A stretch of 43,520 nt of DNA from a virus: positions 1-43,520 of the IMG/VR virus record IMGVR_UViG_3300021960_000157. The stretch is one strand, 5' to 3'. Under the pieces are notes generated by a model. The model did no database searches, was not told where the DNA came from, and saw only the letters and a program-made list of their open reading frames with translations. Numbering within the stretch: position 1 is the stretch's first letter; the number at the start of each line of letters is the position of its first letter. Positions 1,852 to 31,483 of the stretch are shown one piece after another. Made by a program: the position numbers and the translations under genes.

Positions 1852-2643
1852 TTACCTACCCTCAAAACCAGCAGGTAATGTTCCTAGATATGGATTCAAC
1901 GACAGTAATTGGTTGATATCTTCTATCTTGTTAATTTCATTCCTCCAGAAATTCCAGAGTCCATCATGACTACTACGATGATAAGCATCAACATGAATGT
2001 CATGAATGTCTGAACCAAGGTCAATCTTATAGAGGAAGATTGGGATTGCAAAAGTAAGACCACTGTTGTAGATAAGATCATCTGCAACAGCACGAGGGAG
2101 AACCCTTTGATCTAACTTATACCTGCTGCCTTTAGTGTGGAAGTCTAACAGTTTTTGTGCATACCTTCTATTGATAAGATAGCAGGCAGTAGAAAAGTCA
2201 TTGACATATCTACGATGCAACTGCACACTAATAGTAGCAGGGTTAATGATTGCTAACTGAATACAGTCCCAAGCATGTGGGAAGTGGGATGAAAACTCTT
2301 TCCATGTAAATGGCCAGTGCTTTACAACCTCCAGGTCACAATCATCCTCCATCATTATAGCATACTGGTCGTCACTAGTTTCTAACCAGTGCTTCATTGC
2401 TTTAAGATGAGAGGTAACACATCCAATTTCTCCAGAGGACATGTTATCGGGGTACTTACCAGCGATAATATCACTGAGATCATCTCCTCTACCATCATAT
2501 GCAGAGATCCTAGTGTGGTTTTCTACCTCCCAGTATGCAAACTGGTCTTCCATATACTTACGACGATCTTCCTTATCATCTAAGTTAATCCAGTAGATAT
2601 GAGGTAGACCCTTGAGTTTATGGGCGGATTTATTTTTGTCCAT
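1852..2643 (-). CDS. Glycosyltransferase family 25
   Basis: This 263-residue protein matches the GT25 (LPS/collagen galactosyltransferase) family. The N-terminus has IYWINLDDKEDRR, followed by IGCVTSHLKAMKHWLE and the acidic YAIMMEDDCDLE, the metal-nucleotide site of these GT-A-fold enzymes. The family transfers sugars, often galactose, to lipopolysaccharide cores. The ATG at 2643 is chosen over the TTG at 2652 because GAGG sits at a workable distance only for the ATG. It is the last gene of the glycan island and overlaps the upstream transferase by 14 bases. The acceptor cannot be deduced. Confidence 0.85.
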   Translation of the reverse strand: MDKNKSAHKLKGLPHIYWINLDDKEDRRKYMEDQFAYWEVENHTRISAYDGRGDDLSDIIAGKYPDNMSSGEIGCVTSHLKAMKHWLETSDDQYAIMMEDDCDLEVVKHWPFTWKEFSSHFPHAWDCIQLAIINPATISVQLHRRYVNDFSTACYLINRRYAQKLLDFHTKGSRYKLDQRVLPRAVADDLIYNSGLTFAIPIFLYKIDLGSDIHDIHVDAYHRSSHDGLWNFWRNEINKIEDINQLLSLNPYLGTLPAGFEGR

Positions 2644-3583
2644 AACTATCAATCACCTCTTGTACATTAGGTAGGTAGTGGTTTTTAAGGACATTAGTCC
2701 AGTCGAACTCTTTGGCATACTCTAGGATTTCATCCCGATGGGAGACTGAATACTCCCTGTTCTTAATTATAGCATATTCTACATACTCCACATCATCGAT
2801 CTTAGACTCGGGAATAACAGTGATAAATTCCTTATCAAGATCAAGATTCGCAGTAGCAAACTCACTGACTACCACACCGAGACCAGCAGCAAATGCTTCC
2901 ATGATGACGAGAGAGTGTGCCTCACCATCAGAAAGCAGCACAAGGTTACCATAGTCGGTCAGAAAGTCATGGAGATATTCCTTCTTCCATTCACCAAGAT
3001 AGTTTTTGTTAGCGTTGAATCTCTTGTCAGCAATGTTACCAGCAAAGAACAGACTATCGATCGACTGGAACTTATGCTGACGCTTACGGTAGTCTACCTT
3101 TGCGAGATAGATACTACGGTCAGGGAACTCGGGTGTGTCTGTGGTACGGAAGAGATCCAGGTTAACACCATTAGGAACGATCTTCAGTTTCTCCTCAGGA
3201 ATATCTCCAAAGAACTGATATGCTTTTTTGATACCCTCAGACAGGCAGAAGACATTCGGTTTAGTTTGTTGGAAGTGACCGAAGATCTGCCCATACCCAT
3301 TCATCTTGTCTGGGCGCTCGATGTAGGCAAAGTGGGTGGTACACGCACAAGGATATTGAATATAAGGATAGAGCACAATCCAGTCATCGTAATGAATGTG
3401 GACAAAATCAGGGCGATACGCATTGACTCTCTTGAGCACCTCTCTTGGATCTGAGACATTGATGATGTCAACTTCATGGCCAAGTTTCTCCAGGGTAAGT
3501 TTATAGTCCCAGATTAAACTCTCTACCGCACCCCAACCTACTGGTGGGATGGGAGTAGCGGGACCAATGATTGATAATCTCAT
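2630..3583 (-). CDS. GT4-like glycosyltransferase, copy 1
   Basis: This 317-residue GT-B enzyme has an N-terminal GWGAVESLIWDY segment that follows a Gly-rich start. The nucleotide-sugar-binding C-terminal domain contains IVPNGVNLDLF and EAFAAGLGVVVSEF, the E-x7-E type motif of family 4. Such enzymes add retaining sugars from NDP or GDP donors, such as mannose, to surface glycans. It shares GWGAVE-x-LIWDY and GLGVVVSE with the gene directly upstream, so the two look like tandem duplicates. Overlapping starts and stops link it to its neighbours. Donor and acceptor are unknown. Confidence 0.85.
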   Translation of the reverse strand: MRLSIIGPATPIPPVGWGAVESLIWDYKLTLEKLGHEVDIINVSDPREVLKRVNAYRPDFVHIHYDDWIVLYPYIQYPCACTTHFAYIERPDKMNGYGQIFGHFQQTKPNVFCLSEGIKKAYQFFGDIPEEKLKIVPNGVNLDLFRTTDTPEFPDRSIYLAKVDYRKRQHKFQSIDSLFFAGNIADKRFNANKNYLGEWKKEYLHDFLTDYGNLVLLSDGEAHSLVIMEAFAAGLGVVVSEFATANLDLDKEFITVIPESKIDDVEYVEYAIIKNREYSVSHRDEILEYAKEFDWTNVLKNHYLPNVQEVIDSYGQK

Positions 3584-4545
3584 AGTAAAGATTCTAGTTT
3601 AGGAATGTATTCATAAGCAAGGATGTTTTCAAGACCAAATTCGTGAATGCCGTATTCTCTGATCTCTCTTCTAATCTGCCTAGAATGCCTTTTGTTCTTA
3701 ACTACAACATCTTTAATGTAGTCTTGGTTATTTATTTCAGACTCAGGGATGACATCAATGAAAGACTTAGATGTATCGAGTTCTGGAGTAACCGCTTCTG
3801 ATACTACCACACCTAGACCACAAATCAAAGCTTCCTTTACAACCAGTGGTGTAGTGTTCTCTACCTCACTAAGCAGGATAAAGTTTGAATAGTTTGTAAT
3901 ATTTTGATAGAGAATTTCTCTAGGCATTTCGCCTCTAAAATTCTTATCATTATTAAACTTACCGTACTCTCTCCTACCAAAAATATCAATATGAATATTA
4001 TCCCAGTCCTGCATCAGGTACTGACGCTTGCGATCACAAATTTGGGAAAAGCATAATGTAGTATCAAAGGACGCATAATCATTAAATTGATATGGACCAG
4101 GGCGAACACCCAGTTTACTTAACCAAATATTTTCTTCGACCGCATTGCCATATTCTACAAAAGTATTAATGTCTTTCTGACTAGATGCAAAGATAGTAAA
4201 GTCTTTATTATTAGAATATGTTTTAAAGACTTGACCATATCCATCTCTACCCCATCTAGCAGGAACATTTAAGAATGGATAATGACTAGAGACTACTAAC
4301 GCTTTGCAAAGTGGGACGAGATCTTCTATGATATCTTGGAAGACATCGTAATGTAGATGGACTACATCGTACCGCCCATGTTCCACTTCAAACTTAATTA
4401 GTTCTCTGTCAGGTGTATTGATAATTTCTACTCTATGCCCAAGATCTCTGAGAATGTTAGTGTAATCCCAGATTAACATCTCTACAGCACCCCATCCGTT
4501 AGGTGGGATTTCCATAATGCCAGGACCAATTAATGCAATCTTCAT
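3580..4545 (-). CDS. GT4-like glycosyltransferase, copy 2
   Basis: This 321-residue GT-B fold protein is the paralogue of the next gene. It carries GWGAVEMLIWDY near residue 20 and, in the C-terminal domain, LLSEVENTTPLVVKEALICG followed by LGVVVSEAVTPE. The usual GT4 acidic pair is kept (KEALICG...VSE). It overlaps the downstream copy by four bases (ATGA) and the upstream transferase by four bases, so all three are probably translated together. The divergence between the copies suggests they add different sugars or act at different positions, but that is inference. Confidence 0.8.
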   Translation of the reverse strand: MKIALIGPGIMEIPPNGWGAVEMLIWDYTNILRDLGHRVEIINTPDRELIKFEVEHGRYDVVHLHYDVFQDIIEDLVPLCKALVVSSHYPFLNVPARWGRDGYGQVFKTYSNNKDFTIFASSQKDINTFVEYGNAVEENIWLSKLGVRPGPYQFNDYASFDTTLCFSQICDRKRQYLMQDWDNIHIDIFGRREYGKFNNDKNFRGEMPREILYQNITNYSNFILLSEVENTTPLVVKEALICGLGVVVSEAVTPELDTSKSFIDVIPESEINNQDYIKDVVVKNKRHSRQIRREIREYGIHEFGLENILAYEYIPKLESLL

Positions 4546-5378
4546 TTGTATTCCTCCCAGTACATGTCACTCTTGATATCTTTAATGAACTCAGGACTAT
4601 GTGCAGCAAGAGACTCTACATTCTGGCAGGCACTATGGAACAAGAAGACTTTTTTATACTCTTCCTCCTGTGGATTTTTACCATACCACATACCATCCAC
4701 ATACTTTAGATCTTGCTGGTCTGCTGCAGCACAATGATTGAACGCACCGTTGGTAAACTTATAGTCACCAAACTCGTTCAATGCTAAACAGAGAATCAGT
4801 TCGTCAGTTACACCGTTGTGTATACCACCATCACTAAAAACATCACGGAAGATCTCATCATAACGCTCGAAAAGTTTATCATGCTTGTCCTTCTGGAACA
4901 TGAACGCACCAGAGGCAGCGTACTTATAGGTCGAACGATCTTCGGGCAGATACTTAGACAAACCTGCTTTGTCTACAATGACATTAGTAAAGAAGTCTTC
5001 TAAGGTAGGAACCCACCAGTGCTGAGTACACAGGAATGAATCCTCTGCCTCAGCAATGAGTTCATCAACTCTATCATGAATCACTACAGTATCAGTGTCC
5101 ATGTAGATACAGTGATCAGTCTCCACATGCTTGTAAAGATTGTACCGTTCCTTCCAGATGTGTGGTTGAAACCAGTTACGATCATCATCATTCTCCAGAT
5201 GCTCACCTTTACCACTGACGATCTTTACCTTAGGATCATCAATGGATAGACGGTCATCCATATCAATGATGACAACCTCATGGGGTTGAGTCACCCTTTC
5301 CAGGGACTCACATGCCCGCATGAGATTCTTATAATAAATGTCGTCGCCACCGACGATGAATCCAAAAGATAAAGTCAT
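4542..5378 (-). CDS. GT-A type glycosyltransferase with DTD motif
   Basis: This 278-residue protein has an N-terminal Rossmann-like segment (FIVGGDDIYYKNL, HEVVIIDMDD) and a clear DxD metal/nucleotide-sugar motif in CIYMDTDTVVIHD near residue 95. Downstream, YAASGAFMFQKD and DELILCLALNE resemble acceptor-side motifs of GT8-like transferases. It lies between the GT4 pair and a methyltransferase, with four-base overlaps on both sides. Assignment to an exact GT family is uncertain; sugar and acceptor are not known. Confidence 0.72.
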   Translation of the reverse strand: MTLSFGFIVGGDDIYYKNLMRACESLERVTQPHEVVIIDMDDRLSIDDPKVKIVSGKGEHLENDDDRNWFQPHIWKERYNLYKHVETDHCIYMDTDTVVIHDRVDELIAEAEDSFLCTQHWWVPTLEDFFTNVIVDKAGLSKYLPEDRSTYKYAASGAFMFQKDKHDKLFERYDEIFRDVFSDGGIHNGVTDELILCLALNEFGDYKFTNGAFNHCAAADQQDLKYVDGMWYGKNPQEEEYKKVFLFHSACQNVESLAAHSPEFIKDIKSDMYWEEYK

Positions 5379-5995
5379 TCTTCAGGTTTGATATAGACCC
5401 AGGTTTTGTAAGCGTATTCGTTAGTCAGATGAATATTCTCCTGCTGTTCTTCAGTGAAGAACTCTTCTAGAGCACCCTCAACATCAAAGAAGTCGAAGGA
5501 TACATTATCAGGATCGCAGTAGGTATCGTGACCAGCAATGATACCACCCTTCCTAACCTTAGGATACCATGCCTTCAGATCTTCCAGGACTGCCTCCTTA
5601 GTGTGGTCAGCATCAATGTAGATGTAGTCAAAGAACTCATCTTCAAAGTCCTTAGCACGCTCTACAGAGGCACCCTTACACATCTCTACCTGAGGATTGT
5701 CACCATACAGTTCTTTAACTCTGGCATATCCCTGCTCCACACGGTCTTCAAACTTAGTGAAGTGGTCATCATTACCTTCGGTCTGCCAAAGATCTACAAG
5801 GTAGAACTTCTCTACAGAGTCTTTAAGTTGTGGGTAGTAGATGTCAAGGTATCCACCATACTCTACACCAACCTCAAGAACTTTGAGAGGTCCGTTTTCC
5901 TCAAGACTATCCTTAACCACAGTGGGAAGGTGATCCCTAGAGAATTCAAAGTGTTTGAATCTAGGATTGATTTTAAAATTGAGAGGGTTGTACAT
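5375..5995 (-). CDS. SAM-dependent methyltransferase (class I)
   Basis: This 206-residue protein shows a class I SAM fold. LKVLEVGVEYGGYLDIY is motif I, FYLVDLW is the acidic end of strand 2, and DYIYIDADHTKEAVLEDL with RKGGIIAGHDTY is typical of the Methyltransf_24/cephalosporin-hydroxylase-like group. Members often methylate sugars in surface polysaccharides and natural products. It sits inside the glycan island between two glycosyltransferases, so sugar O-methylation is likely but not shown. The stop overlaps the next start by four bases. Confidence 0.8.
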   Translation of the reverse strand: MYNPLNFKINPRFKHFEFSRDHLPTVVKDSLEENGPLKVLEVGVEYGGYLDIYYPQLKDSVEKFYLVDLWQTEGNDDHFTKFEDRVEQGYARVKELYGDNPQVEMCKGASVERAKDFEDEFFDYIYIDADHTKEAVLEDLKAWYPKVRKGGIIAGHDTYCDPDNVSFDFFDVEGALEEFFTEEQQENIHLTNEYAYKTWVYIKPEE

Positions 5996-5997
5996 AA

Positions 5998-6912
5998 TTA
6001 CAGAAGTTTTAAAATACCTTGTGCGCGATTGATAAATGTATGTTTATCTCTAACTACTTTCATCTGATGCTGAATCAGTTCTACATCCTGATACTTTGCG
6101 AGACCTTCGTTAAACAAATCTAGAATGTTTTCTTGGCACACAATAGTGTCATCGATAAAGTTAGCAAGTTTTGGTGCATTGGTCATGCCCAACATGCCAT
6201 AACTGATTGCTTTGAATATCCTACAACTCTTAACTCCCCAATTTTTATGGGTTTCATTTCTGAGGTCAGGTTGCATAACTGACTTCTGCATGTACTCCCT
6301 ATAGACCTCATCAGGAAGAGGATCAGTCCAAGGATTGCTATGGTAGCAGGAGATTCCTGCTTGCTTACAGTAATGCATCCACTCTGAAATGATTGGTCCG
6401 TTAGCAAAAGGACCAGAGGGAGACACGCTCCCGATCATATAATAAACAGGTTCTCTTTTCCTGAGTGCCCAGTCAAAGTTGAACTCATGAGGCAACAGAT
6501 TTGCTGCCCATGCCATGTAAATTATATCATACTCGGAAGAATTCTTGTCGTAGAGTACACCAGACTCTAGTTCATCACAGTTATCATAGTCTACCTTGTA
6601 TGTATAATTGGTATCCTCCATGTAATCTACATGATATCTCATGTCGATTAACTTTTTGACATTACCCAGATACTTACCTGGGTTTACACATACATGGCAT
6701 ACATATGTACTACTCTTCCTTAGAGGAATTTTTTTATCTCTGTAACCTTCACAGAAGAAAAGACAGTCTTCATAGTCAAAGTCCTCTGGATGATCTTCAT
6801 CAGTAAACCAGAAGACTTCATGTCCCAGGTGCTCAAATGCTTTCTTAAATGCTTCGTAGATATAGGAATAGGTATCCGTGTGTAGCGGATACCCCCAAAG
6901 GACGACCTTCAT
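5998..6912 (-). CDS. Putative GT-B glycosyltransferase
   Basis: This 304-residue protein starts MKVVLWGYPLHTDTYSYIYE and carries FEHLGHEVFWFTDED, the layout of a GT-B N-terminal domain. The C-terminal half contains GVKSCRIFKAISYGMLGMTN, resembling the glycosyl-transferase C-terminal segment in which a phage- or bacterial-type enzyme binds its donor (KAxSYG). I cannot assign a CAZy family. It is located between the FkbM and class I methyltransferases and shares a TGATG junction with the former. A polysaccharide pyruvyl transferase-like role is less likely. Confidence 0.6.
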   Translation of the reverse strand: MKVVLWGYPLHTDTYSYIYEAFKKAFEHLGHEVFWFTDEDHPEDFDYEDCLFFCEGYRDKKIPLRKSSTYVCHVCVNPGKYLGNVKKLIDMRYHVDYMEDTNYTYKVDYDNCDELESGVLYDKNSSEYDIIYMAWAANLLPHEFNFDWALRKREPVYYMIGSVSPSGPFANGPIISEWMHYCKQAGISCYHSNPWTDPLPDEVYREYMQKSVMQPDLRNETHKNWGVKSCRIFKAISYGMLGMTNAPKLANFIDDTIVCQENILDLFNEGLAKYQDVELIQHQMKVVRDKHTFINRAQGILKLL

Positions 6913-7613
6913 CAGACCCTCCCGAGCATATAGTCCTCTGCCTTCTTAGTCTCACCATTGACACACTTCATAGCATCAATGATGTCAGCAGACACCAGAT
7001 CAGGATGAGCCCACCAATCTTCAAAAGGATGCTGATCGTCAACGGAAATATTGTCAACAATAAGAACATAACCGTATGACTCAAGATACTCACGAGAAGC
7101 ATCCCGAACTTCAGGACCATCGTTATAAGCATCGTGCTCGAAGGTGATGGTAGCGAACTTGAACTTATCTAGGTTAATCTTCTTCAGAGCATCAAAGGTA
7201 ACCTGAGAAGGTTCACAATCTACCTGAAGATAATCAAAGGTAGGACCAAGTTCAACCTCTTCAAAGAGAGCATCGTAGTCTGCCTCAAGGGCATTACCCA
7301 GAGCAATGAAGTTCTGCCTTTGATCATTGTAAAGGTTTGCCTCATGCTCTTTAATCTCAAGACCAATACCTTTCCATTGATAAAGAGACTCTAAGAGAGC
7401 AGTATTATTAGAGATGATAGGGTGTCCAGCACCAATCTCTACATAGGTTCCGCCCTTTTTACCGTCAGTCATGCTCAGAACAAACATGTCCTGGTAGCAT
7501 TGTGAGAAATTATTTCTATTAACCGACTTACTATTCTTAAACTTGTACCTGAGTTCTGGTTGTTTATCAGCGGTATAATATGTTGGCAGCTGCCATGCAT
7601 TTGGATCGGTCAT
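6912..7613 (-). CDS. FkbM-family methyltransferase
   Basis: This 233-residue protein fits the FkbM methyltransferase family. It has FSQCYQDMFVL and TYVEIGAGHPIISNNT (SAM-binding motif I) followed by GIGLEIKEHEANLY, then FDYLQVDCEPSQVTFDALKK and FATITFEHDAY. FkbM enzymes O-methylate sugars and other small molecules. The start overlaps the stop of the GT6 gene by four bases (ATGA), so it is probably translated together with it. Together with the other two methyltransferases in the island it suggests that the phage-directed glycan carries several methyl caps. Confidence 0.88.
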   Translation of the reverse strand: MTDPNAWQLPTYYTADKQPELRYKFKNSKSVNRNNFSQCYQDMFVLSMTDGKKGGTYVEIGAGHPIISNNTALLESLYQWKGIGLEIKEHEANLYNDQRQNFIALGNALEADYDALFEEVELGPTFDYLQVDCEPSQVTFDALKKINLDKFKFATITFEHDAYNDGPEVRDASREYLESYGYVLIVDNISVDDQHPFEDWWAHPDLVSADIIDAMKCVNGETKKAEDYMLGRV

Positions 7614-8305
7614 GTTTGATATTCAGAGTTATTTTTAGCTAGGTGAATGATTTTCCGATCATATGGATACTGAGGAAAACACTCAGGGAATGCGTAGTCT
7701 GGGGACAGGTCATTTACCCTGTCTTTATTTTCAGAAAAGAATTTATTAAGATGACTTTCATCATGCCACAAGGCAATTATATCATTACTGTAGTCAGTGT
7801 CAACCCTTTTCTTCAATTCCTTCATCATAGGAATGACTGCAGAGACCTTCCCTCCCCATAGGCATCCCTGATAGTATGCTTTTTCTTTATCAGGAACACA
7901 TGCTGTTGATGCTGGGTTAGTCTCAAAGGTTCCAGAGTAATCATTGTAGTGACATGGATGATGCACTGCGACGAAATCTTTTTCTGGATCTAAGATTTCA
8001 TTAGAGAAGATCTTTTTATTGACCCTCATATCAGCATCCAGGAAGAGTAACCAGTCATATGACTTCAGTTCCTCTTCTGCCTCAAGGATAGTATGGAATC
8101 TCTCTAGTGTGATTGATGGCCAAGGTTTATGCTCGATATTATATACCGAGATATCATCTGGAGTTCCTTCTAGATCTCCATCAGTAAAAACAAAGTATTG
8201 CTTCTTACAATCTGGCATTAAGAGTTCATCACACTGCTCATAATATGATGGTAAAAAATCTAAGTAACGGTTGGTGCCGATGAATACAATAGCAACGCTT
8301 CTCAT
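7610..8305 (-). CDS. GT6 (ABO-type) alpha-1,3-glycosyltransferase
   Basis: This 231-residue protein closely follows the family 6 pattern of vertebrate ABO and alpha-1,3-galactosyltransferases. In order it has FVFTDG, WPSITLERFHTI, the DAD motif (D90-A91-D92) in LLFLDADMRV, HHPCHY, YYQGCLWGG, and WHDESHLNKFF with LSPDYAFPE. The family transfers Gal or GalNAc to a fucosylated galactose acceptor. The open frame extends upstream, but the ATG at 8305 forms an ATGA overlap with the GT11 stop and begins at the family's catalytic core. A GT6 gene has been reported in a cyanophage before. Donor sugar is unknown. Confidence 0.88.
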   Translation of the reverse strand: MRSVAIVFIGTNRYLDFLPSYYEQCDELLMPDCKKQYFVFTDGDLEGTPDDISVYNIEHKPWPSITLERFHTILEAEEELKSYDWLLFLDADMRVNKKIFSNEILDPEKDFVAVHHPCHYNDYSGTFETNPASTACVPDKEKAYYQGCLWGGKVSAVIPMMKELKKRVDTDYSNDIIALWHDESHLNKFFSENKDRVNDLSPDYAFPECFPQYPYDRKIIHLAKNNSEYQT

Positions 8306-9111
8306 AGTTTCATCCAACCTTTGCAGTAAAGATCTTTGGTATTGTGCCTCTGATCTAACGGAGGACCAAACCATTTTTTCGGTGCGATTACTGCCTTTTC
8401 TGGTGTCGTTGAAAGCCATGCTCCCCACCAACTAAATGAACTGTTTGCGATAATAAAATCTACACACTGTGTCATTAAACACAGATCTATATATTGATCT
8501 CCAGATTCTGAGATCATGAATCTATCACCAGAGAATAACTTTTGCTTATGACACCACTCTGGATCATCAGAAAAAATAATTACATTTCTCGTCGAATCAA
8601 AGTATGAAAGTGCCTCTTCATAATAGTCTAGACTGACAATAGGGTGGTGGTTATATTGTGCGTAGTCTGTACGACGAACATGTAAAGCGATAGGGTTGTG
8701 CATCCCTGCCATTGCTCCATCACACACCTCTTTGATATCTGGTTTAAAAGTAAAGTCTTTCAGCAACTCATCTCTAACATTTTCAAAATACTTTTCGCTT
8801 TGAAAAAATCCATCCAGGGTTACCCAATCGGGACAGGTATTAAACAACTTCTCATTAAAATGAAATGTTCCCTCTGAAATTATAGGTCTGCCTGGGTCAA
8901 TACATTGTACCTGCAGTGGGTTAAAAGTTTCTAACACAAAAGGAGTGAACAATTGATGCTCACTCCATTGATCAGCATTAGATTTAAAGTTAGAAGGTGG
9001 GACACAATACTGAAACCCTCTGTTCTTTGCGATGCCTTTTACAGCAGCATACTGAAACATCTGGTTTGCTAGTCTCTCACCTTTTTTTCCTACGCCGTTA
9101 ATACCAATCAT
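8302..9111 (-). CDS. GT11 alpha-1,2-fucosyltransferase
   Basis: This 269-residue protein has the family 11 signature: an N-terminal GERLANQMFQYAAVKGIA, then the GDP-fucose-binding IALHVRRTDYAQ, and IIFSDDPEWC with FIIANSSFSWWGAWLS near the C-terminus. These enzymes add fucose in alpha-1,2 (or alpha-1,6-type) linkage, commonly to galactose. Length is normal for bacterial members. It overlaps GDP-fucose synthase upstream and the GT6 gene downstream by four bases each, so donor synthesis, fucosylation and the next sugar addition are encoded consecutively. Confidence 0.93.
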   Translation of the reverse strand: MIGINGVGKKGERLANQMFQYAAVKGIAKNRGFQYCVPPSNFKSNADQWSEHQLFTPFVLETFNPLQVQCIDPGRPIISEGTFHFNEKLFNTCPDWVTLDGFFQSEKYFENVRDELLKDFTFKPDIKEVCDGAMAGMHNPIALHVRRTDYAQYNHHPIVSLDYYEEALSYFDSTRNVIIFSDDPEWCHKQKLFSGDRFMISESGDQYIDLCLMTQCVDFIIANSSFSWWGAWLSTTPEKAVIAPKKWFGPPLDQRHNTKDLYCKGWMKL

Positions 9112-10046
9112 CTTGTTTGTAAGTCAGTGTTTTGAATAAACCAGTCGTAAGTTTTACGAAGACCGTCTAATAATTTATACTTTGGTCTCCAACCTTTCTC
9201 TAGCAGTTTGGAATAGTCTAGAGGACGCTTAGGCGTACCGTCTGGTTTAGAAGTGTCCCACTTAATCTCACCAGGATAACCAGTAATACCAGCAATCATC
9301 TCTGCTAGTTCTTTGATAGAAACATCCTCACCAGACCCAACATTCAACAACTCTGCAGACTCATAGTTCTCCATGGCAAAGAGACATGCATCAGCAAGGT
9401 CATCACAGTGAAGGAACTCACGGCGAGGAGTGCCTGTACCCCAGCAGGTAACAGGACCATCACCTTGCTGCCAGTTATTGAACTTCTGGAGCATAGCAGG
9501 GATTACATGCCCGTTCAGGGGATGGAAGTTATCATTAGGACCATAGAGATTGGCAGGCATCAGGGAGACGCCCTTGAACCCATACTGTTTATAGTAAGAC
9601 TTCAGCATGTAGATGCCGTGGATCTTAGCGAGAGCATATGCATCGTTGGTAGGCTCTAGTTCTCCAGACATTAGCGACTCTTCCTGCACGGGAGTCTCTG
9701 CAAACTTAGGGTAGATGCAGACACTTCCAAGGAAGAGAAACTTTTGTACACCATGCTTCCAGGCATAGTGAATGAGGTTGGTTTGGATCTGAGTGTTCTG
9801 GTAGATGAACTCTGCCGAGTAAGTATCGTTAGCATGGATGCCACCGACACGAGCAGCAGCATCGAACACATAGTCAATACCTTCAGACCTAAAGAACTTT
9901 TCGACAGCGAACTGATCCATAAGATCAAGCTCCTGCCGAGTTCTAGTAATGATATGCTCATAACCTTCTTCCTGAAGACGACGAACAATGGCAGATCCAA
10001 CTAAACCACGATGACCAGCGACAAAAATTCTTGCGTGTTTCTGCAT
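9108..10046 (-). CDS. fcl: GDP-L-fucose synthase
   Basis: This 312-residue short-chain dehydrogenase-type enzyme makes GDP-L-fucose from GDP-4-keto-6-deoxymannose. IFVAGHRGLVGSAIVRRL binds NADP(H); GSVCIYP and YALAK hold the catalytic Ser-Tyr-Lys; RREFLHCDDLADAC is typical of the family. The ATG at 10046 matches family N-termini; an in-frame GTG at 10061 overlaps the upstream stop as GTGA but lacks a good ribosome site. It works with gmd, one gene upstream, and feeds the GT11 gene that follows. Confidence 0.95.
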   Translation of the reverse strand: MQKHARIFVAGHRGLVGSAIVRRLQEEGYEHIITRTRQELDLMDQFAVEKFFRSEGIDYVFDAAARVGGIHANDTYSAEFIYQNTQIQTNLIHYAWKHGVQKFLFLGSVCIYPKFAETPVQEESLMSGELEPTNDAYALAKIHGIYMLKSYYKQYGFKGVSLMPANLYGPNDNFHPLNGHVIPAMLQKFNNWQQGDGPVTCWGTGTPRREFLHCDDLADACLFAMENYESAELLNVGSGEDVSIKELAEMIAGITGYPGEIKWDTSKPDGTPKRPLDYSKLLEKGWRPKYKLLDGLRKTYDWFIQNTDLQTR

Positions 10047-10057
10047 TGTTCTCAACT

Positions 10058-11305
10058 TCACGGGACTACAACTTCAGGTTGTGGCAGGGGGAACAGTAGA
10101 CGCTTTCCTTTAAACTTAGGATTGTTTACAAAGAAATCTCTGAAGTGCCAGGGTAAGACGATATGAACATCAAACTCTTTGTCCATTACATCTTCTTCAT
10201 CAGCAATGGGGATCCAGGTTCCAGGGGTAAATGATCCATCCTTATCTGGATTAACATCGCCAACCACTTCAATGTCACGATCAGTAAGCATCCAAGTCTG
10301 GAGAGTTACATTGCCCTTAGTGCTGGCACCGAGAGCACAGATGCGACCCTTGTTCTCCTTGTAGAAGTTAAGAATCTTCCAGAACTGCTCACGACATTGG
10401 ACAATACGCTTACCAAATTCGATCCAGGGTTCAGTAGTATCCAGACCCATGTCCAGTTCCATGGCGATGAGACCAGTCAGTTTAGTCGTACACTCTTTAC
10501 GCTCACTGTTAGCAGAAGGAGTGACAACAACAGAAATGCTACCACCATTAACATCATTGAATTCAAAATCAACGATCTTGAATCCTGCCTTATCCATGAT
10601 GTACTTGAGTTGCCTCATGCCATAGTAAGACAGATGCTCATGACACACAGTATCGAATGAGTTCTGCTTCAGCATCTCAGGCATATAGCTCTGCTCAAGG
10701 ACCCAGATACCATGAGGATCAAGACACTCATGCACCTGACGAGCAAACTCGCAGGGATCTTCCAGGTCATAGAACATCGAGAACGATGTAACTACCTTTG
10801 CCTTCTGCTTACCAAACCTCTCCTTAAAGGTAGTAGAGGAGAAGAAGTCTGCAATGTAATTTACATTGGAAGGGAAGTATTGACTGAACTTTTCTGAGGT
10901 GGGATCAATGCTCATGAGTTGTAGATCATGAGGGAAGAACCCCAGGAAGGTGCCATCATTACCAGCGATATCAATGACGATATCACCAGAGTCCAACTTA
11001 ACATCAGACATGATCTTCTCTGCCTTACCACGCAGATGCTTAATCATGCTGCCATTCAGACCAGAGCGATAACCATACTCCTGACCATACATTGTAGGCA
11101 GGTCAAAGGTATGTTCCAACTGAACATGACCACAACCACCCTTAGTCTCATCACACTTAACAAGAGTCAGAGGACCCTTGTACATGTCTTCATCAATCTG
11201 CTTAGGAAAAATGCCAGAAAGATATTGATCACCCAGATCCAGAACGGTTACTAGATGTTCGTTACCACATACTCTGCATTTTTCAATCTTATAAAATTTG
11301 TTCAT
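10058..11305 (-). CDS. Sugar C-methyltransferase with zinc-binding N-terminus
   Basis: This 415-residue protein has the three-part layout of NovU/TylCIII-like C-methyltransferases. The N-terminal zinc-binding domain shows CRVCG and a later [10 protein letters not shown]. The central SAM domain includes [17 protein letters not shown], and [20 protein letters not shown] is a hallmark of the group. The C-terminal domain contains [17 protein letters not shown]. The family methylates carbon atoms of 4-keto-deoxysugars. Its place between gmd and GDP-fucose synthase suggests it acts on the GDP-4-keto-6-deoxymannose intermediate or a related sugar, but this is inference. The start at 11305 gives an ATGA overlap with gmd. 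Confidence 0.88.
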
Positions 11306-12294
11306 TGTCCGTAAATACACATGTCTTCTACAAGTTCTTGGAAACTAATCTCTGGTTCCCAACCTAAGATATCTTTTGCCTTTGAGGCATCGCCCAGAAG
11401 TTGCTCTACTTCTGTTGGGCGGTAATATTTAGGGTTAACTTTGACAACCGTTTTTCCACTAAACTTATCAACACCGATCTCGTCTAGACCTTCACCTTGC
11501 CATTCGATCTTAAGACCGAAATACTTTGATGCTTCATCTACAAACTCTCTAACACTACGCATCTCACCAGTAGCGAGAACGAAATCATCAGGAGTCTCGT
11601 GCTGAGCGATCATCCACATGCCACGAACATAGTCCTTGGCATGTCCCCAGTCACGCTGAGCGTCCAGGTTACCCAGTTCTAGGACATCTTGGAGTCCACA
11701 TGAGATTTGTGAGAGTCCTCTCGTGATCTTACGGGTAACGAAGGTTTCACCTCTCCGTGGGGACTCATGATTGAAAAGTATACCGTTGCTAGCATGGATA
11801 TCATATGCCTCACGGTAGTTCCTAGTGATCCAATACGCATAGAGTTTCGCCACGCCATAAGGTGAGCGTGGGTAGAACGGTGTAGTCTCTCGCTGAGGGA
11901 CTTCCTGCACGAGTCCATACAGTTCACTGGTAGATGCCTGATAGAACTTGCAAGGATGGTCCAACAAACGAATAGCCTCCAGGAGACGCAATGTCCCTAG
12001 AGCATCGACCTGTCCAACATAGTCAGGCATCTCAAAGGATACCTTAACATGACTCATTGCGCCAAGGTTGTACACCTCGTCAGGTTTAATAGATTGAATA
12101 AGACTGATAAGGTTACCCGCATCAGTCAGGTCTCCATAGTGGAGATCGATACGACCATAGATATGATCGATACGGTGGGTATTAATAAGAGAAGAACGGC
12201 GCACGATGCCATGAACTTCATACCCTTTTTCAAGGAGAAATTCGGCAAGGTACGAACCGTCCTGTCCCGTAATACCTGTAATTAATGCTCTCAT
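11302..12294 (-). CDS. gmd: GDP-mannose 4,6-dehydratase
   Basis: This 330-residue enzyme converts GDP-mannose to GDP-4-keto-6-deoxymannose, the first step to GDP-fucose. It starts with the NADP-binding [19 protein letters not shown], has [10 protein letters not shown] and the catalytic YGVAK, and the diagnostic [17 protein letters not shown]. Length fits the family, slightly short. Its start forms a TAATG junction with the small upstream gene. With fcl, three genes of the island make an activated deoxyhexose for the GT11 enzyme. GDP-mannose would come from the host. Confidence 0.96.
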
Positions 12295-19479: not shown

Positions 19480-21264
19480 TCAACAGGTGCAAGGATCGTT
19501 ACCACAGCAGGAGCACTTACCTTCTTTCTTCTTAGGCATCTTAGGGTTCTTAGCAACGGTCTTTGGTTTGTCGTCGCTACGATTCCAATCCATTGCCTTC
19601 TTACCATGCTTCGTGGTATACTCATCAACAATATAGGCAACCTCTTCGGGAGTCAGTTCTGGAAGTACCAGAACAGCATGGTCCTCATCGATAGCGAGGT
19701 TCTCGTCTAGAAGATAACCAACAACAATATCATAGAGACTAGTTACCTCTTCCTTTGTATATTCAGAGCGATACTTACCACCAGTCTTCTTGTGGGTGTC
19801 CTCTAGTTCTGCTGCTCTAGCATCAGCATACTTTCTACTCTTTACAGGTTTGCCAACCTTTTTCTCCTCTTTTCCATCGGTGGAACCATAAACCTGATAG
19901 GGCATCTCATCAATCTGCTCTACCTCTTCTTTATTCATTCTCTTTGCTTCTTTAGCGGCATCATCTCTGTCTCTATGATCTGCTCTTCTTTTAGCATCAT
20001 CATTCATAACTTTGGTAATCTTCTTCGATCTTTCCATCGCTTCAGGACTACCATCACGACCAAGATTTCCTGCCTTACGGAACATCTTCAGATAAGGAAG
20101 TTTTTTCTTTTCTTCATCGAGAGTTTCCAGAAGTCTGGAGTGTACATGCTCATACCCTGCTTTCACTACAGTTGGAGTGCCAGTGGCAGCAGCAGTTCCC
20201 TTGTTATAAAGTGCTTTATTAACTTCAGATCTAGAACCACCGCTTTGTCTGATCTTCTGAGCAGCAGCAAGTTTTGGATTTGCTTTTGCCCAAGCAGACA
20301 TATCTGCCGCTTTATTGCCAGTCTGTGCTACAAAGGGTTTGGTAGCAGCAGTAGGTGCTGGTTTAGCGGGTGCAGTAGGTGCTGGTTTAGGAGCAGCAGG
20401 AGCGGGTGCATTTGCTGTAGTTGGATTAACGGCACCTCCCTGCCTCTGTGTGGTCGATCCCAAGTCTCTACCACCCTGACCTCTTTGAGGTTTAGCAGGG
20501 GCAGCAGCAGGGGTGCTAGCAGCGGGTGCAGCAGGAGTGCTAGCACCGCTACCAGGCAGATTACCAGTCGTTACGAAGTCTCCAATGCTCTTCAATCGCT
20601 GATTATTTCTGGCAGCTGCAGGGTTGGTAGCAGCAGTGTTAGGAGTACCAGTAAAAATATTTCTTACCTGATTAGCAGCACCCTTAAACAGGTCACCAGT
20701 CATGTTGGTCAGTGCTCTACCAGCTCTGTAACCAAGATCTTGGTTTTTTCCAGGATTAGTTCCAATTTCTAATCCACCAACCTTACCATAAACACCAGGT
20801 TTCTGAGGTGCCTCACTGATCTGAATAGCGACTGCTCTGGCTTGCTTTCTGCCAGCACTCTGAGCGTTCTCGTTCAGATGAGGATTTACTGTGCCCAGAG
20901 CAGCACGGAAGTCGTGTCCTACGATGTCCTTATCCAGTGCCTCTGCAATGTTATCAATGAGTCTAGGACTCTCATATCCCATGACAATGCATCCTTCAGC
21001 AATGTCAAGGAATCTCTCTGCCAGTTCTACATTCATAACCTTGAGACGCTTGTAGTAGTAGGACTCTGCTACAACCAACTCAAACTTTTCTCTCATCCAG
21101 CGAGGAACGGTGTCGTCCTTCACCTTCTTCATATCCTCAACAGCTTTCTCATTATTCTTACGACGCTTCTTCATATCTGTCTCAAGATATGAATCGTCTT
21201 TGTCTTTTCCTTCAGCAATGTCCGAAAAGGACTGTGCCATTTTAGTGATATCAGAAGGCAGCAT
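19480..21264 (-). CDS. Large Ala/Pro-rich protein, probably structural
   Basis: This 594-residue protein has a charged helical N-terminus (about residues 1-130). A long Ala/Pro/Thr/Gly-rich linker follows (about residues 215-330, APAAPKPAPTAPAKPAPTAA), then a basic region. The acidic C-terminus repeats EEV motifs and ends with a Cys cluster (CSCCGNDPCTC). Such modular, low-complexity proteins are common among cyanophage virion or head-core proteins. A late promoter lies 31 bases upstream and a strong terminator follows, making a one-gene late unit. The exact role is not known. Confidence 0.72.
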   Translation of the reverse strand: MLPSDITKMAQSFSDIAEGKDKDDSYLETDMKKRRKNNEKAVEDMKKVKDDTVPRWMREKFELVVAESYYYKRLKVMNVELAERFLDIAEGCIVMGYESPRLIDNIAEALDKDIVGHDFRAALGTVNPHLNENAQSAGRKQARAVAIQISEAPQKPGVYGKVGGLEIGTNPGKNQDLGYRAGRALTNMTGDLFKGAANQVRNIFTGTPNTAATNPAAARNNQRLKSIGDFVTTGNLPGSGASTPAAPAASTPAAAPAKPQRGQGGRDLGSTTQRQGGAVNPTTANAPAPAAPKPAPTAPAKPAPTAATKPFVAQTGNKAADMSAWAKANPKLAAAQKIRQSGGSRSEVNKALYNKGTAAATGTPTVVKAGYEHVHSRLLETLDEEKKKLPYLKMFRKAGNLGRDGSPEAMERSKKITKVMNDDAKRRADHRDRDDAAKEAKRMNKEEVEQIDEMPYQVYGSTDGKEEKKVGKPVKSRKYADARAAELEDTHKKTGGKYRSEYTKEEVTSLYDIVVGYLLDENLAIDEDHAVLVLPELTPEEVAYIVDEYTTKHGKKAMDWNRSDDKPKTVAKNPKMPKKKEGKCSCCGNDPCTC

Positions 21265-28820: not shown

Positions 28821-29024
28821 TCAAGCATCCTCGCGGTTTCTGATTGCGGCAGAAACTGCTTCCAAAAGCTTGTCATCCATATCAGTTTTGGTCAGCTTAA
28901 CTGCTTTACCAAGAATAACCAGACAAATGTCAATGAGTTTTTCGCCAAGTTCCTCGTTCTCGGGAATCTTTGCAACGGCATCGGTAATAATTTTCGATGC
29001 TAATGGAAGAAGAAATCCTAACAT
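28821..29024 (-). CDS. Hypothetical 67-aa protein, possible holin-like
   Basis: A 67-residue protein. The N-terminus is hydrophobic (MLGFLLPLASKIITDAV), and a second hydrophobic stretch follows (LIDICLVILGKAVKL); the remainder is charged. The two amphipathic or membrane-associated helices recall small lysis proteins, but no proper family motif is present. No Shine-Dalgarno is visible before the ATG. It is followed by a late promoter for the next gene. Function unknown. Confidence 0.6.
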   Translation of the reverse strand: MLGFLLPLASKIITDAVAKIPENEELGEKLIDICLVILGKAVKLTKTDMDDKLLEAVSAAIRNREDA

Positions 29025-29058: not shown

Positions 29059-29712
29059 TCAATCTCTTGCGGAATCATATTTCGCTCTTGCATCAGATTC
29101 CTTCTTTTCTTTAGAAGTGAATCCATGCTTACGAACCCGCTCGTTATGCTTCTTAATGCGCTCTTGATTCAGTTCACCTTCTGTGGGTTTGCGACCTCTT
29201 TCCTTTTTCTCTTCACGAGAACCAGGGTGCTCCTTACGGAACTTGTCGGTGATCCCCTTAGCGCGACCTTCCCGTTCTAACTCGGCAACTTTCCTGCCCT
29301 TCTCTTCAACTTCAGGTTTACGAGATTCTTTGAGACGATTAAAAATACTCTCTACATTAAGAGTCTTTGGATAATCCTTATCACCAGGTTTTGCAGGTTT
29401 CTCACCACGCTTACGCTTAGCATGGATATTGTCCCACAAACCTTTCTTCCCCTCAGAAACTTGTTCCTTCTCTTTCTTCTCCTTCTCTTCACGCTCTTTG
29501 TCGATGTCATGATCGGCACCAGTTTTGAGACGCTGTTTCAGAGTCGAAGGACCATACTTGTCCTGCTTATGACGAGTCATTCTCTTCATACGATCGAGAG
29601 TTTCACCACTCGCTCGCTGAAGTTTATTCTCCTGCTCAATACCTTTCTTTACTGCCTTAGCAGCACTCTTTAACTTATCGCGAACCCCCTCTTCAATAGA
29701 GGAGGTTTCTAC
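29059..29712 (-). CDS. Reading frame reached by a -1 frameshift (217 aa)
   Basis: This frame runs from GTA at 29712 to the stop at 29059 and has no ATG until 29589, where no Shine-Dalgarno is seen. The 41 codons before that ATG are open and coding-like (SSIEEGVRDKLKSAAKAVKK). It overlaps the upstream gene only in a seven-A run. The product is highly charged and helical, with GKKGLWDNIHAKRKRGEKPA. The likely product is the C-terminal half of a fusion of about 398 residues made by -1 frameshifting. Alternatives are a homopolymer sequencing error or an independent 176-aa protein starting at 29589. Confidence 0.7.
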   Translation of the reverse strand, partial: VETSSIEEGVRDKLKSAAKAVKKGIEQENKLQRASGETLDRMKRMTRHKQDKYGPSTLKQRLKTGADHDIDKEREEKEKKEKEQVSEGKKGLWDNIHAKRKRGEKPAKPGDKDYPKTLNVESIFNRLKESRKPEVEEKGRKVAELEREGRAKGITDKFRKEHPGSREEKKERGRKPTEGELNQERIKKHNERVRKHGFTSKEKKESDARAKYDSARD

Positions 29713-29733
29713 TTTTTTTCAGTTTCTTCCTCT
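29683..29733 (-). promoter_or_regulatory. Candidate -1 programmed frameshift signal
   Basis: On the minus strand an SD-like AGAGGA (29728-29733) precedes, after nine bases, the in-phase slippery heptamer A-AAA-AAG (29712-29718), followed at once by the zero-frame TAG. After a 4-base spacer comes a hairpin of AACCTCCTCT, a 5-base loop, and AGAGGGGGTT (29683-29707): 10 pairs with one G-U, of which the inner eight are strongest. A TGA in the -1 frame just upstream limits the switch to the A-run. The three parts match the order in E. coli dnaX. Confidence 0.75.
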
Positions 29734-30254
29734 TTTACGCAGTTAGGAACTTCTTTACCACCCTTCTTCTTAGTGCCCTTGGCAGTATAACCATCCCAGC
29801 AGGTAGAAGCGCCAACATTCTTACGCGCCTGCTTCATACCCTCACCGATGTACTTATCCTCATACATTCTGAGGATCATGTTGGAGACAGACTCCTTCAT
29901 CTCAGGGTTAACAATAATCTTATTGTTAACTGGTTTCTCAGTAATCTCTACCTGCTTCTCACTAGAAGTGGTAGCGTCCTTACTTTGATGAAGAGCAGTT
30001 GCTTCCATCATCTTCTGTCGAAGAGACTCTTCCATCTCTTCTTTCATGGATTTTTTCTTACCTCTGTCAGCAGCAATAGCTTTACCAATCGCCTTGCGAC
30101 GCTTGTGCAGATACTTGTCACTGCTGTCAGAGTCACCGTCGTTATCGATATCGGCGTCTTCTTTTCCTACTGGATCCAATGCCTCAGGCATGAAAACATT
30201 TACCATGCTGCGAAGCATGATGAGTTCCGAGTTCTCTTCAATAAAATTTGACAT
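29709..30254 (-). CDS. Probable virion-like protein ending at frameshift site
   Basis: A 181-residue charged protein: an acidic segment (GKEDADIDNDGDSDSSDKYL), a Lys-rich helix, and a C-terminal GASTCWDGYTAKGTKKKGG-type motif that recurs in cyanophage structural proteins. It ends ETEKK before a TAG that sits next to a slippery A-run. A late TATAAATA promoter lies 32 bases upstream, inside the 3' end of the preceding gene. Two forms, 181 and about 398 residues, are expected if the signal works. Role in the virion is unknown. Confidence 0.75.
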   Translation of the reverse strand: MSNFIEENSELIMLRSMVNVFMPEALDPVGKEDADIDNDGDSDSSDKYLHKRRKAIGKAIAADRGKKKSMKEEMEESLRQKMMEATALHQSKDATTSSEKQVEITEKPVNNKIIVNPEMKESVSNMILRMYEDKYIGEGMKQARKNVGASTCWDGYTAKGTKKKGGKEVPNCVKEEETEKK

Positions 30255-30271: not shown

Positions 30272-31483
30272 CTATTTCTTGTTATTATTTATAAATGACC
30301 TAACCTTCTCGGAAGGTGTCAGTTGCTGTACATACTCTCTGTATGAATCTGTACCAACTTCTCTCTTGGAGGCAACGACTCCGCTGACAGGTTTCTTAAA
30401 GTATTCATTCAAATCCTGAATCCAAGATTTGAACATGATACCTTCATTTGTAACAGCGATGACATAGTTAGTGCCCTTTCTCATCACCCTACCGATGAGA
30501 CCTGTATTCATATTCTCTACAAGTTGACCAATGTTAAAGACATTACCAGAGATGTATTGTTCTCTCAGAGTCTTCCAATCAAACTTAGGCGCGATCTGCC
30601 ACAGTTCAAGACCTTCTTTCTTGGTAGCAGCCTTACCCATAGATTTCTGAACTGTATTAAACAGTTCTCTAGCGACTACACCCTTTGCTGCTTTGGGCAA
30701 TCCTTTTTTAAATGCCTCAAAGTCTCCGTCTGCTGCTAAAGCTCTGAGCTTGGAAGCAGACATACCCTCGACCCCTTCAGCATCAGGGTCTCGCTCCCCT
30801 GCACTGATGACATTAAGCGAATCAAAAGTATAGAGACTCCCGTTGTATTTGTTCGCGAGACTCTCAAACTCCTGCTTTCTGTCAGCACCAACCACGATAT
30901 TGACAGAGGAGAATCCTTGGGTGTCTGCATTTTTCAAAGCATCAATAATAGTGCGAATAGATGGATCATAGACAATATTAGAACTATGATCAGGGAACAT
31001 CTTCTTCATGAAAAGAACCTTTGTCTCAGCATCCAAAGGATTCTTCTGTGCATCAGTGGTATGGGAAGGGTAAATCAAATATTCACCATCTTCAGCAGCA
31101 TCTTTAATTCTGTCTAGCAGTTTCTCGTGTCCAGATGTAGGAGGATTGAACCTACCGAATCCAATAGTGATGGTTCCGCGTGTCTTTTCTACTGCTTCTT
31201 CTTCCTCTTCTGGAGCAGCCTCTTGACCACCAGCACCAGGTGGTCCTGGGGGAGGTGCTTCTGGAGCAATTTGTCTTGCTGCTCTACCTGGTTTTGTTGG
31301 ATCTGTATCCTGTGATGGTTTTCTACCGCTAGAAAAAACTAACTCACCATCTACAGTTCTACCAACAACCCTGTCATTGGAATCCAACCAGGATCCATGA
31401 CCATCACCCTTTAGCCCAAGCTTCTTTGCCTGCTTAGCAGCATTGGACTGTGCCTCTCCTAAAAAATTGAAGAAAGATTTCAT
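30272..31483 (-). CDS. Virion-like protein with nucleotidyltransferase domain
   Basis: A 403-residue modular protein. After a helical N-terminus (MKSFFNFLGEAQSNAAKQA) and a Pro-rich linker comes a cytidylyltransferase-like domain. TITIGFGRFNPPTSGHEKLL holds the HxGH-type nucleotide site, and GMSASKLRALA matches the second motif of the superfamily. The C-terminal 120 residues are a separate region. The family includes NMN adenylyltransferase-like enzymes. A late promoter lies 43 bases upstream, which suggests the protein is packaged or made late. The ATG at 31483 is preferred over a TTG at 31498. Confidence 0.78.
   Translation of the reverse strand: MKSFFNFLGEAQSNAAKQAKKLGLKGDGHGSWLDSNDRVVGRTVDGELVFSSGRKPSQDTDPTKPGRAARQIAPEAPPPGPPGAGGQEAAPEEEEEAVEKTRGTITIGFGRFNPPTSGHEKLLDRIKDAAEDGEYLIYPSHTTDAQKNPLDAETKVLFMKKMFPDHSSNIVYDPSIRTIIDALKNADTQGFSSVNIVVGADRKQEFESLANKYNGSLYTFDSLNVISAGERDPDAEGVEGMSASKLRALAADGDFEAFKKGLPKAAKGVVARELFNTVQKSMGKAATKKEGLELWQIAPKFDWKTLREQYISGNVFNIGQLVENMNTGLIGRVMRKGTNYVIAVTNEGIMFKSWIQDLNEYFKKPVSGVVASKREVGTDSYREYVQQLTPSEKVRSFINNNKK
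30286..30293 (-). promoter_or_regulatory. Late promoter TATAAATA
   Basis: The minus strand reads TTATAAATAA inside the last codons of the 403-aa gene, 32 bases before the start of the 181-aa gene. Confidence 0.78.

Follow-up and report, generated by a model that had tools for sequence, protein, structure and literature searches.

A programmed -1 ribosomal frameshift of the dnaX type, joining two reading frames (ORF1 and ORF2) into one gene, is very probably the best explanation for the arrangement described here, with slippage, its rate and the fusion protein all inferred from sequence alone. The frames lie on the minus strand of IMG/VR record IMGVR_UViG_3300021960_000157, whose whole analysed stretch of 43,520 nucleotides (hereafter the window) carries DNA polymerase, UvsX-, helicase-, primase- and NrdA/B-like ORFs, and which we take to be a T4-like cyanophage. 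The sequence elements of the signal, with their phase and spacing, their repeated occurrence in one genomic slot of many T4-like cyanophages, isolates included, and the coding constraint on the -1 frame are established by direct observation. Because the layout recurs in that slot with different flanking proteins and different hairpin sequences, the dnaX-type reading is supported, and the original prediction, which had proposed a dnaX-like -1 frameshift for this one gene, is more general than it claimed, slippage itself remaining an inference.

According to this reading, most ribosomes would terminate at the TAG that closes ORF1 and release a protein of 181 residues. A fraction would be paused by a hairpin, aided by SD pairing, allowing tRNA-Lys(UUU) in the P and A sites to re-pair on the slippery heptamer A-AAA-AAG one base back and so to produce a fusion of 398 residues.

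The putative signal and its two frames

The elements of the signal and the genes around it are collected in Table 1. Read directly, the minus strand of the window has a run of seven A's (29719-29713) followed by a G, and in the -1 frame a TGA stands directly 5' of the heptamer, leaving 0 open codons upstream. The predicted hairpin has stem arms AACCTCCTCT (29707-29698) and AGAGGGGGTT (29692-29683) around the loop ATTGA; its first pair lies 4 nt past the heptamer, and its first two pairs are A-U. Folding of 66 nt gives -18.0 kcal/mol (z -3.2, with 2 of 200 shuffles equally good), and a 60-nt fold beginning directly past the heptamer gives z -2.2. The AGAGGA is a modest SD, its duplex energy of -5.9 kcal/mol being equalled by 7% of control positions in ORF1. 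At both thresholds of an Rfam search the window signal matched no model and no frameshift element, and a search of viral contigs for the exact window junction with a variable A-run returned 0 matches; the length of the A-run in the window rests on a single metagenome contig. ORF2, which contains a GLWDNIHAKRKRGEKPAKPGDKDYPKTLNVE module, has no usable start near its beginning, its first ATG being 41 codons in, 120 nt past the ORF1 stop and without an SD.

Every sequence statement of the original prediction held on direct reading and folding, namely the AGAGGA, its spacing of 9 nt, the A-AAA-AAG, the TAG, the 10-pair hairpin, the TGA directly upstream in the -1 frame, and the 41 codons that precede an SD-less first ATG. 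It had also predicted a fusion of about 398 residues beside a 181-residue form; the frame lengths held (181 + 217 = 398), and the fusion protein itself is undemonstrated.

Table 1. Elements of the putative frameshift signal and neighbouring genes in the window
Feature	Position	Strand	Remarks
SD-like AGAGGA	29728..29733	(-)	9 nt upstream of heptamer; possible upstream stimulator; read directly
Slippery heptamer A AAA AAG	29712..29718	(-)	in phase with ORF1
Zero-frame stop TAG	29709..29711	(-)	directly 3' of heptamer
Candidate stimulatory hairpin	29683..29707	(-)	10 pairs, 5-nt loop; from folding
ORF1, zero frame	29709..30254	(-)	181 aa, MSNFIEENSE...NCVKEEETEKK-stop; ends with heptamer and TAG; relatives L001-L006, L084-L086
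ORF2, -1 frame	29059..29712	(-)	217 codons past the putative shift, plus stop; protein P0001, VETSSIEEG...AKYDSARD
Upstream neighbour, NMNAT/cytidyltransferase-like (phrog_395)	30272..31483	(-)	starts MKSFFNFLGEA; homologue is a virion protein in S-SCSM1
Downstream neighbour, conserved 67-aa protein (gp187 / T4-GC 424, phrog_402)	28821..29024	(-)	anchor of the slot survey

Both ORFs are mosaics of modules that occur elsewhere in cyanophages (CWDGY...PNCVKEE; GLWDNIHAKRKRGEKPAKPGDKDYP). One relative, L001, is 95% identical to ORF1 through residue 177 and then continues into another in-frame module without a heptamer, and in L084, L085 and Sf-FS3 a single continuous frame crosses the slot. Thus, some versions have a single frame, and it is a cassette that sets the window apart from these. 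Set against L084 and L081, the window linker appears to hold some 9 extra bases, ACCTCCTCT, which make up most of the 5' arm of the hairpin, with the caveat that the alignment of so short a linker is not unique. ORF1, ORF2 and the 67-aa gene are all without a Pfam match above cut-off (a 'PBAN' match to ORF1 was rejected, as its score fell below the curated cut-off), and PHROG matches in the slot, which is located near primase and nrdA, are of unknown function. The 67-aa gene is T4-GC 424 in P-SSM4 and Syn19. Elsewhere in the window, a 594-aa gene at 19480-21264(-) has charged linkers (EEVEQIDEM..., KEEVTSLYD...) in the style of ORF1 and ORF2 and is possibly another head-internal protein, and a long series of ORFs at 1852-12294(-) resembles glycosyltransferases and GDP-sugar enzymes.

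Recurrence in the same slot of T4-like cyanophages

The slot was defined as the region between the NMNAT-like gene and the conserved 67-aa gene, and regions upstream of the latter, used as an anchor, were gathered from viral contigs and cultured phages. A heptamer-first search, for A-AAA-AAG followed by a stop at once or one codon later, found 61 distinct ORF ends, of which 42 have a -1 frame open for at least 25 codons and 6 an open +1 frame; the 19 with a closed -1 frame are mostly NMNAT gene ends and serve as natural controls. Because this search began from the heptamer itself, a heptamer-independent test was run on 217 distinct slot contexts, in which ORF pairs were scored for a second-ORF start codon near the end of the first ORF. 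Where the second ORF overlaps in the -1 frame and has no start codon, A-AAA-AAG ends the first frame in 13 of 14 contexts, against 14 of 96 where an ATG lies near the junction (Fisher P = 9e-9, indicative only, since the contexts are not phylogenetically independent). Most of the 14 ATGs that do accompany a heptamer are the internal Met of a V-x-V-M-P motif. The heptamer is absent from all +1 pairs (0/38), and its baseline across ORF ends is about 2% (56/2819). The one start-less -1 overlap that lacks A-AAA-AAG (L008:1396-1414) has a 13-A run at the end of its first frame and a 628-codon second frame, and is a candidate for transcriptional slippage or assembly error.

Counted overall, the heptamer layout is present in about one seventh of slot contexts (32/224), and a start codon sits at the junction in 129/217, most two-ORF phages surveyed. 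The slot has three solutions, a frameshift (inferred from its sequence), a continuous frame, or a separately started second gene.

Among cultured phages the signal is found in S-CAM1, S-CAM3, S-RIM44, S-RIM32, Syn1, S-H9-2 and Sf-CH1a, and is annotated as a frameshift in none of them. The -1 extension has been annotated as a tiny gene of its own, its start being internal or overlapping, in S-RIM44 (L246:4394-4477), S-CAM1 (L244:4307-4471) and S-CAM3 (L247:4351-4476). Small slot ORFs at L250:3301-3558, L257:3198-3479 and L247:2974-3165 are labelled ribonucleotide reductase subunits in GenBank, apparently through propagated misannotation. The slot gene of S-H38 (L162) ends without such a signal. 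Sites in L312/L314, L325, L356, L313 and L381 also combine the heptamer with an open -1 frame, but they either lack a convincing hairpin or possess a start of their own, and were not accepted as firm cases.

Firm sites were sorted by eye into about eleven groups: F1 (the window), F2 (L002/L206), F3 (L193, L197), F4 (S-CAM1, L200), F5 (S-RIM44, S-RIM32, Syn1, S-H9-2, Sf-CH1a), F6 (S-CAM3, L182 and others), F7 (L322), F8 (L301 and others, with an ORF2 of 203-757 codons), F9 (L199), F10 (L076) and F11 (L061). Their first-frame proteins differ (MSNFIEE, MANLKHV, MERQKPV, MLSQKLQ, MSSFSEF), and the ends encoded by the heptamer are all KK. The A-run counts seven A's in many members and only six in several (L193, L197, L200). 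By ORF length the strongest sites are those of F8 (L301, L324, L328, L329, L300) and L199, where second frames of 450-757 codons without an early start follow A-AAA-AAG and a hairpin.

Stimulators, coding constraint and a shared cassette

Frameshifting is known to be stimulated by a structure located 5-8 nt downstream and by an upstream SD (PMC4066793). Predicted stems begin about 4-6 nt past the heptamer in F1-F4 and F6-F10, with unrelated sequences and z commonly between -2 and -5; they are weaker in F8 (z about -1 to -2.8) and part of F4, and F5 has no convincing hairpin (z -0.6 to -2.5). The original prediction had proposed looking for a conserved heptamer and hairpin in relatives, and what relatives offer is a recurring heptamer followed by hairpins that are alike in position and unrelated in sequence. 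Within F6, a 16-pair structure has standard pairs in 90% of cells, against 31-65% for slid versions, with a covariation score of 0.228 versus 0.139 shuffled (0/500) and ten double-sided changes versus 4.4 in shuffles. This amounts to moderate support, because the structure derives from one of the ten sequences compared, and these are related to each other; one member, L187, breaks the stem. Strong SD-like elements occur in F5, F6, F7 and F11 and in three of the five members of F4, with AAGGAG(G) as the sequence in F5-F7 and in most F4 members; F1, F2 and F10 have a modest one, and F3, F8 and F9 have none.

In the stretch that runs from the heptamer up to the earliest ATG in ORF2, variable columns across five families number 11, 8 and 30 at -1-frame codon positions 1, 2 and 3. 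Over the same stretch, which L084, L085 and L087 read in a continuous frame, differences between the window and these relatives fall at third positions in 13/22, 14/20 and 13/18 cases, respectively. Given this third-position bias, the start-less stretch in the frameshift families is under protein-coding constraint in the -1 frame. Furthermore, the stop in F5 isolates is TAA in some and TGA in others, and the heptamer is retained in both; what is conserved is therefore not an overlapping GTG. Predicted fusions supply peptides that lie upstream of the first ATG or span the junction, such as SASVEVMPDIEDGAEDATAK in S-CAM3, KPVVEVMPEIDDGEPDPKPTAGK in S-RIM44 and VETSSIEEGVR in the window.

The window and L206 have in common GAAAAAAAGTAGA, CCTCCTC and GAGG in register, forming a heptamer-TAG-hairpin core, and their flanking protein modules differ on both sides. 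This comparison suggests that the signal was retained, or transferred, as a unit when its surroundings were exchanged. Four distinct records of S-RIM44 are 100% identical across the signal, as are six of S-CAM1, which makes read error unlikely for this class of signals; L002-L004 come from three metagenomes.

Efficient slippage on A-AAA-AAG, compared with other homopolymeric heptamers, has been described where there is a single tRNA-Lys, as in E. coli (PMC5009743). In a pattern search, tRNA-Lys(UUU) was found in four of five Synechococcus assemblies and tRNA-Lys(CUU) in none of the five, which fits that situation; the actual host of the window is unidentified.

Alternative explanations

A recent one-base deletion, or a sequencing or assembly error in the A-run, could have split a continuous gene and left the heptamer as an incidental feature. 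In its favour, orthologues with a single frame exist, homopolymers are error-prone, and the exact window junction is known from one copy only. Against it, the same heptamer, stop and open -1 frame recur across numerous independent contigs and in isolates whose copies are identical, the cassette is common to L206, and a hairpin at stimulatory distance would have to be a coincidence, so we consider this explanation unlikely. Expression of ORF2 as a separate gene, whether through re-initiation or with a GTG that overlaps the stop (AAGTGA) as its start, is less likely still. Most two-ORF phages surveyed do have a start codon at the junction (129/217 contexts) and TGA-type members offer a GTG there, from which some of them could possibly start ORF2. 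However, the first ATG of the window is 120 nt past the stop and lacks an SD, coding constraint on the -1 frame sets in at the heptamer in TAA- and TAG-type members although these have no junction start, and the conserved element is the heptamer, not the GTG. Slippage of RNA polymerase rather than the ribosome could also join the frames, and seven-A runs are present in many members; transcriptional slippage on nine A's has been described for Thermus dnaX (PMC3711429). This can be all but dismissed, as L193, L197 and L200 have only six A's, and the phase with tandem Lys codons, the SD and the hairpin spacing are ribosomal features. A reading of the pair as tail assembly chaperones (gpG/gpGT) was ruled out by gene context, the slot lying between NMNAT-like and gp187 genes, near primase and nrdA.

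Several points nonetheless count against the dnaX-type frameshift: orthologues with a single frame, the weak hairpin of F5, the missing SD in F3, F8 and F9, and the absence of expression, ribosome profiling or mass-spectrometry data for the fusions. The original prediction had held that it would be refuted by homologues in which both parts form one frame without a slippery site, and L084, L085 and Sf-FS3 formally meet that description. They do not refute it, because the slot consists of exchanged modules, and the heptamer with an open -1 frame persists in other phages, some of them isolates.

A proposed function

By a narrow margin we favour the view that the frameshift would place a C-terminal cargo on a minority of the copies of a head-internal protein, one comparable to the T4 internal proteins. 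The following observations lead to this inference. Mass spectrometry identified both the NMNAT protein of S-SCSM1 and the product of the gene just after it as virion proteins (PMC9602691), a result that lends positional support only to the 'virion-like' label of the original prediction. The NMNAT neighbour in the window begins, at 31483, with MKSFFNFLGEA, which resembles the T4 internal-protein targeting sequence (MKTYQEFIAEA-like), where residues 4 and 7 are important to targeting and residues 8 and 10 to processing (PMC9026906); ORF1 itself starts MSNFIEENSE, and some separately started second modules begin MKSFNEFSEG, MKSFNEFVSEG or MKSFKQLREEC. Finally, a second gene starting MKSFKQLREECGCDKK in L043 corresponds to KK/VSEACGCDDK past the putative frameshift in L200.

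A bolder reading, for which the balance tips slightly the other way, is that of a Gag-Pol-like device. The frameshift would determine how much core-protein-cargo fusion is made relative to core protein, the fusion would be carried into the prohead by its ORF1 part, and the prohead protease would free the cargo just past the junction, with the heptamer-stop-hairpin cassette exchanged between phages as an alternative to a start and targeting sequence of the cargo's own. Candidate protease sites just past the junction are SIEE/G (window), VSE/A or VNE/A (F4) and VAE/G (L076). Such a site is plausible in F1, F4, L193 and F10 but implausible in F5-F9, and the processing step is therefore speculative.

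Relation to known systems and significance

The mechanism itself is already known from dnaX, phage tail chaperones and Ig-like extensions. Like E. coli dnaX (tau/gamma), the window has an SD-like element about 9-10 nt upstream, A-AAA-AAG, and a downstream hairpin at a similar distance, but in dnaX the slip gives the shorter product, whereas here it would give a longer fusion, and the gene, host group and protein function differ. The gpG/gpGT tail assembly chaperones would be a parallel in that only a minority of the ribosomes translating a phage gene shift -1 and so append a C-terminal part; the genes are different, and since long-tailed phages, T4 excepted, are stated to conserve the G-T frameshift (PMC5009743), this would be a separate use in T4-like phages. 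Ig-like extensions of phage capsid and tail proteins (T3/T7, A2, A118, PSA) are likewise interchangeable C-terminal parts added in frame or by frameshift (PMC5009743), whereas the slot extensions are charged low-complexity modules and the slot proteins look virion-internal rather than part of the shell. T4 internal proteins, with their targeting sequence and gp21 processing, are matched by MK(S/T)FxxFxxE N-termini on the neighbour and some separately started second genes, and by hydrophobic-x-E/(A,G) sites between modules (PMC9026906), but in cyanophages targeting and cleavage are only inferred by likeness, and to our knowledge no T4 internal protein is made by frameshifting.

To judge from the searchable literature, such a frameshift has not been reported for this gene or this phage group, nor has the recurrent use of the cassette: the open-licence papers searched on cyanophage frameshifting and on T4-like cyanophage genomes and proteomes contain no report of the signal, and an earlier report elsewhere is not excluded. 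T4-like cyanophages belong to the most abundant viruses of the oceans. In cultured phages, annotation has divided the gene into two hypothetical genes of unknown function and, if the frameshift reading is true, the fusion proteins are absent from the protein databases used for virion proteomics. The slot would then also let the same parts be compared side by side, in natural versions that are fused, started separately or joined by frameshifting.
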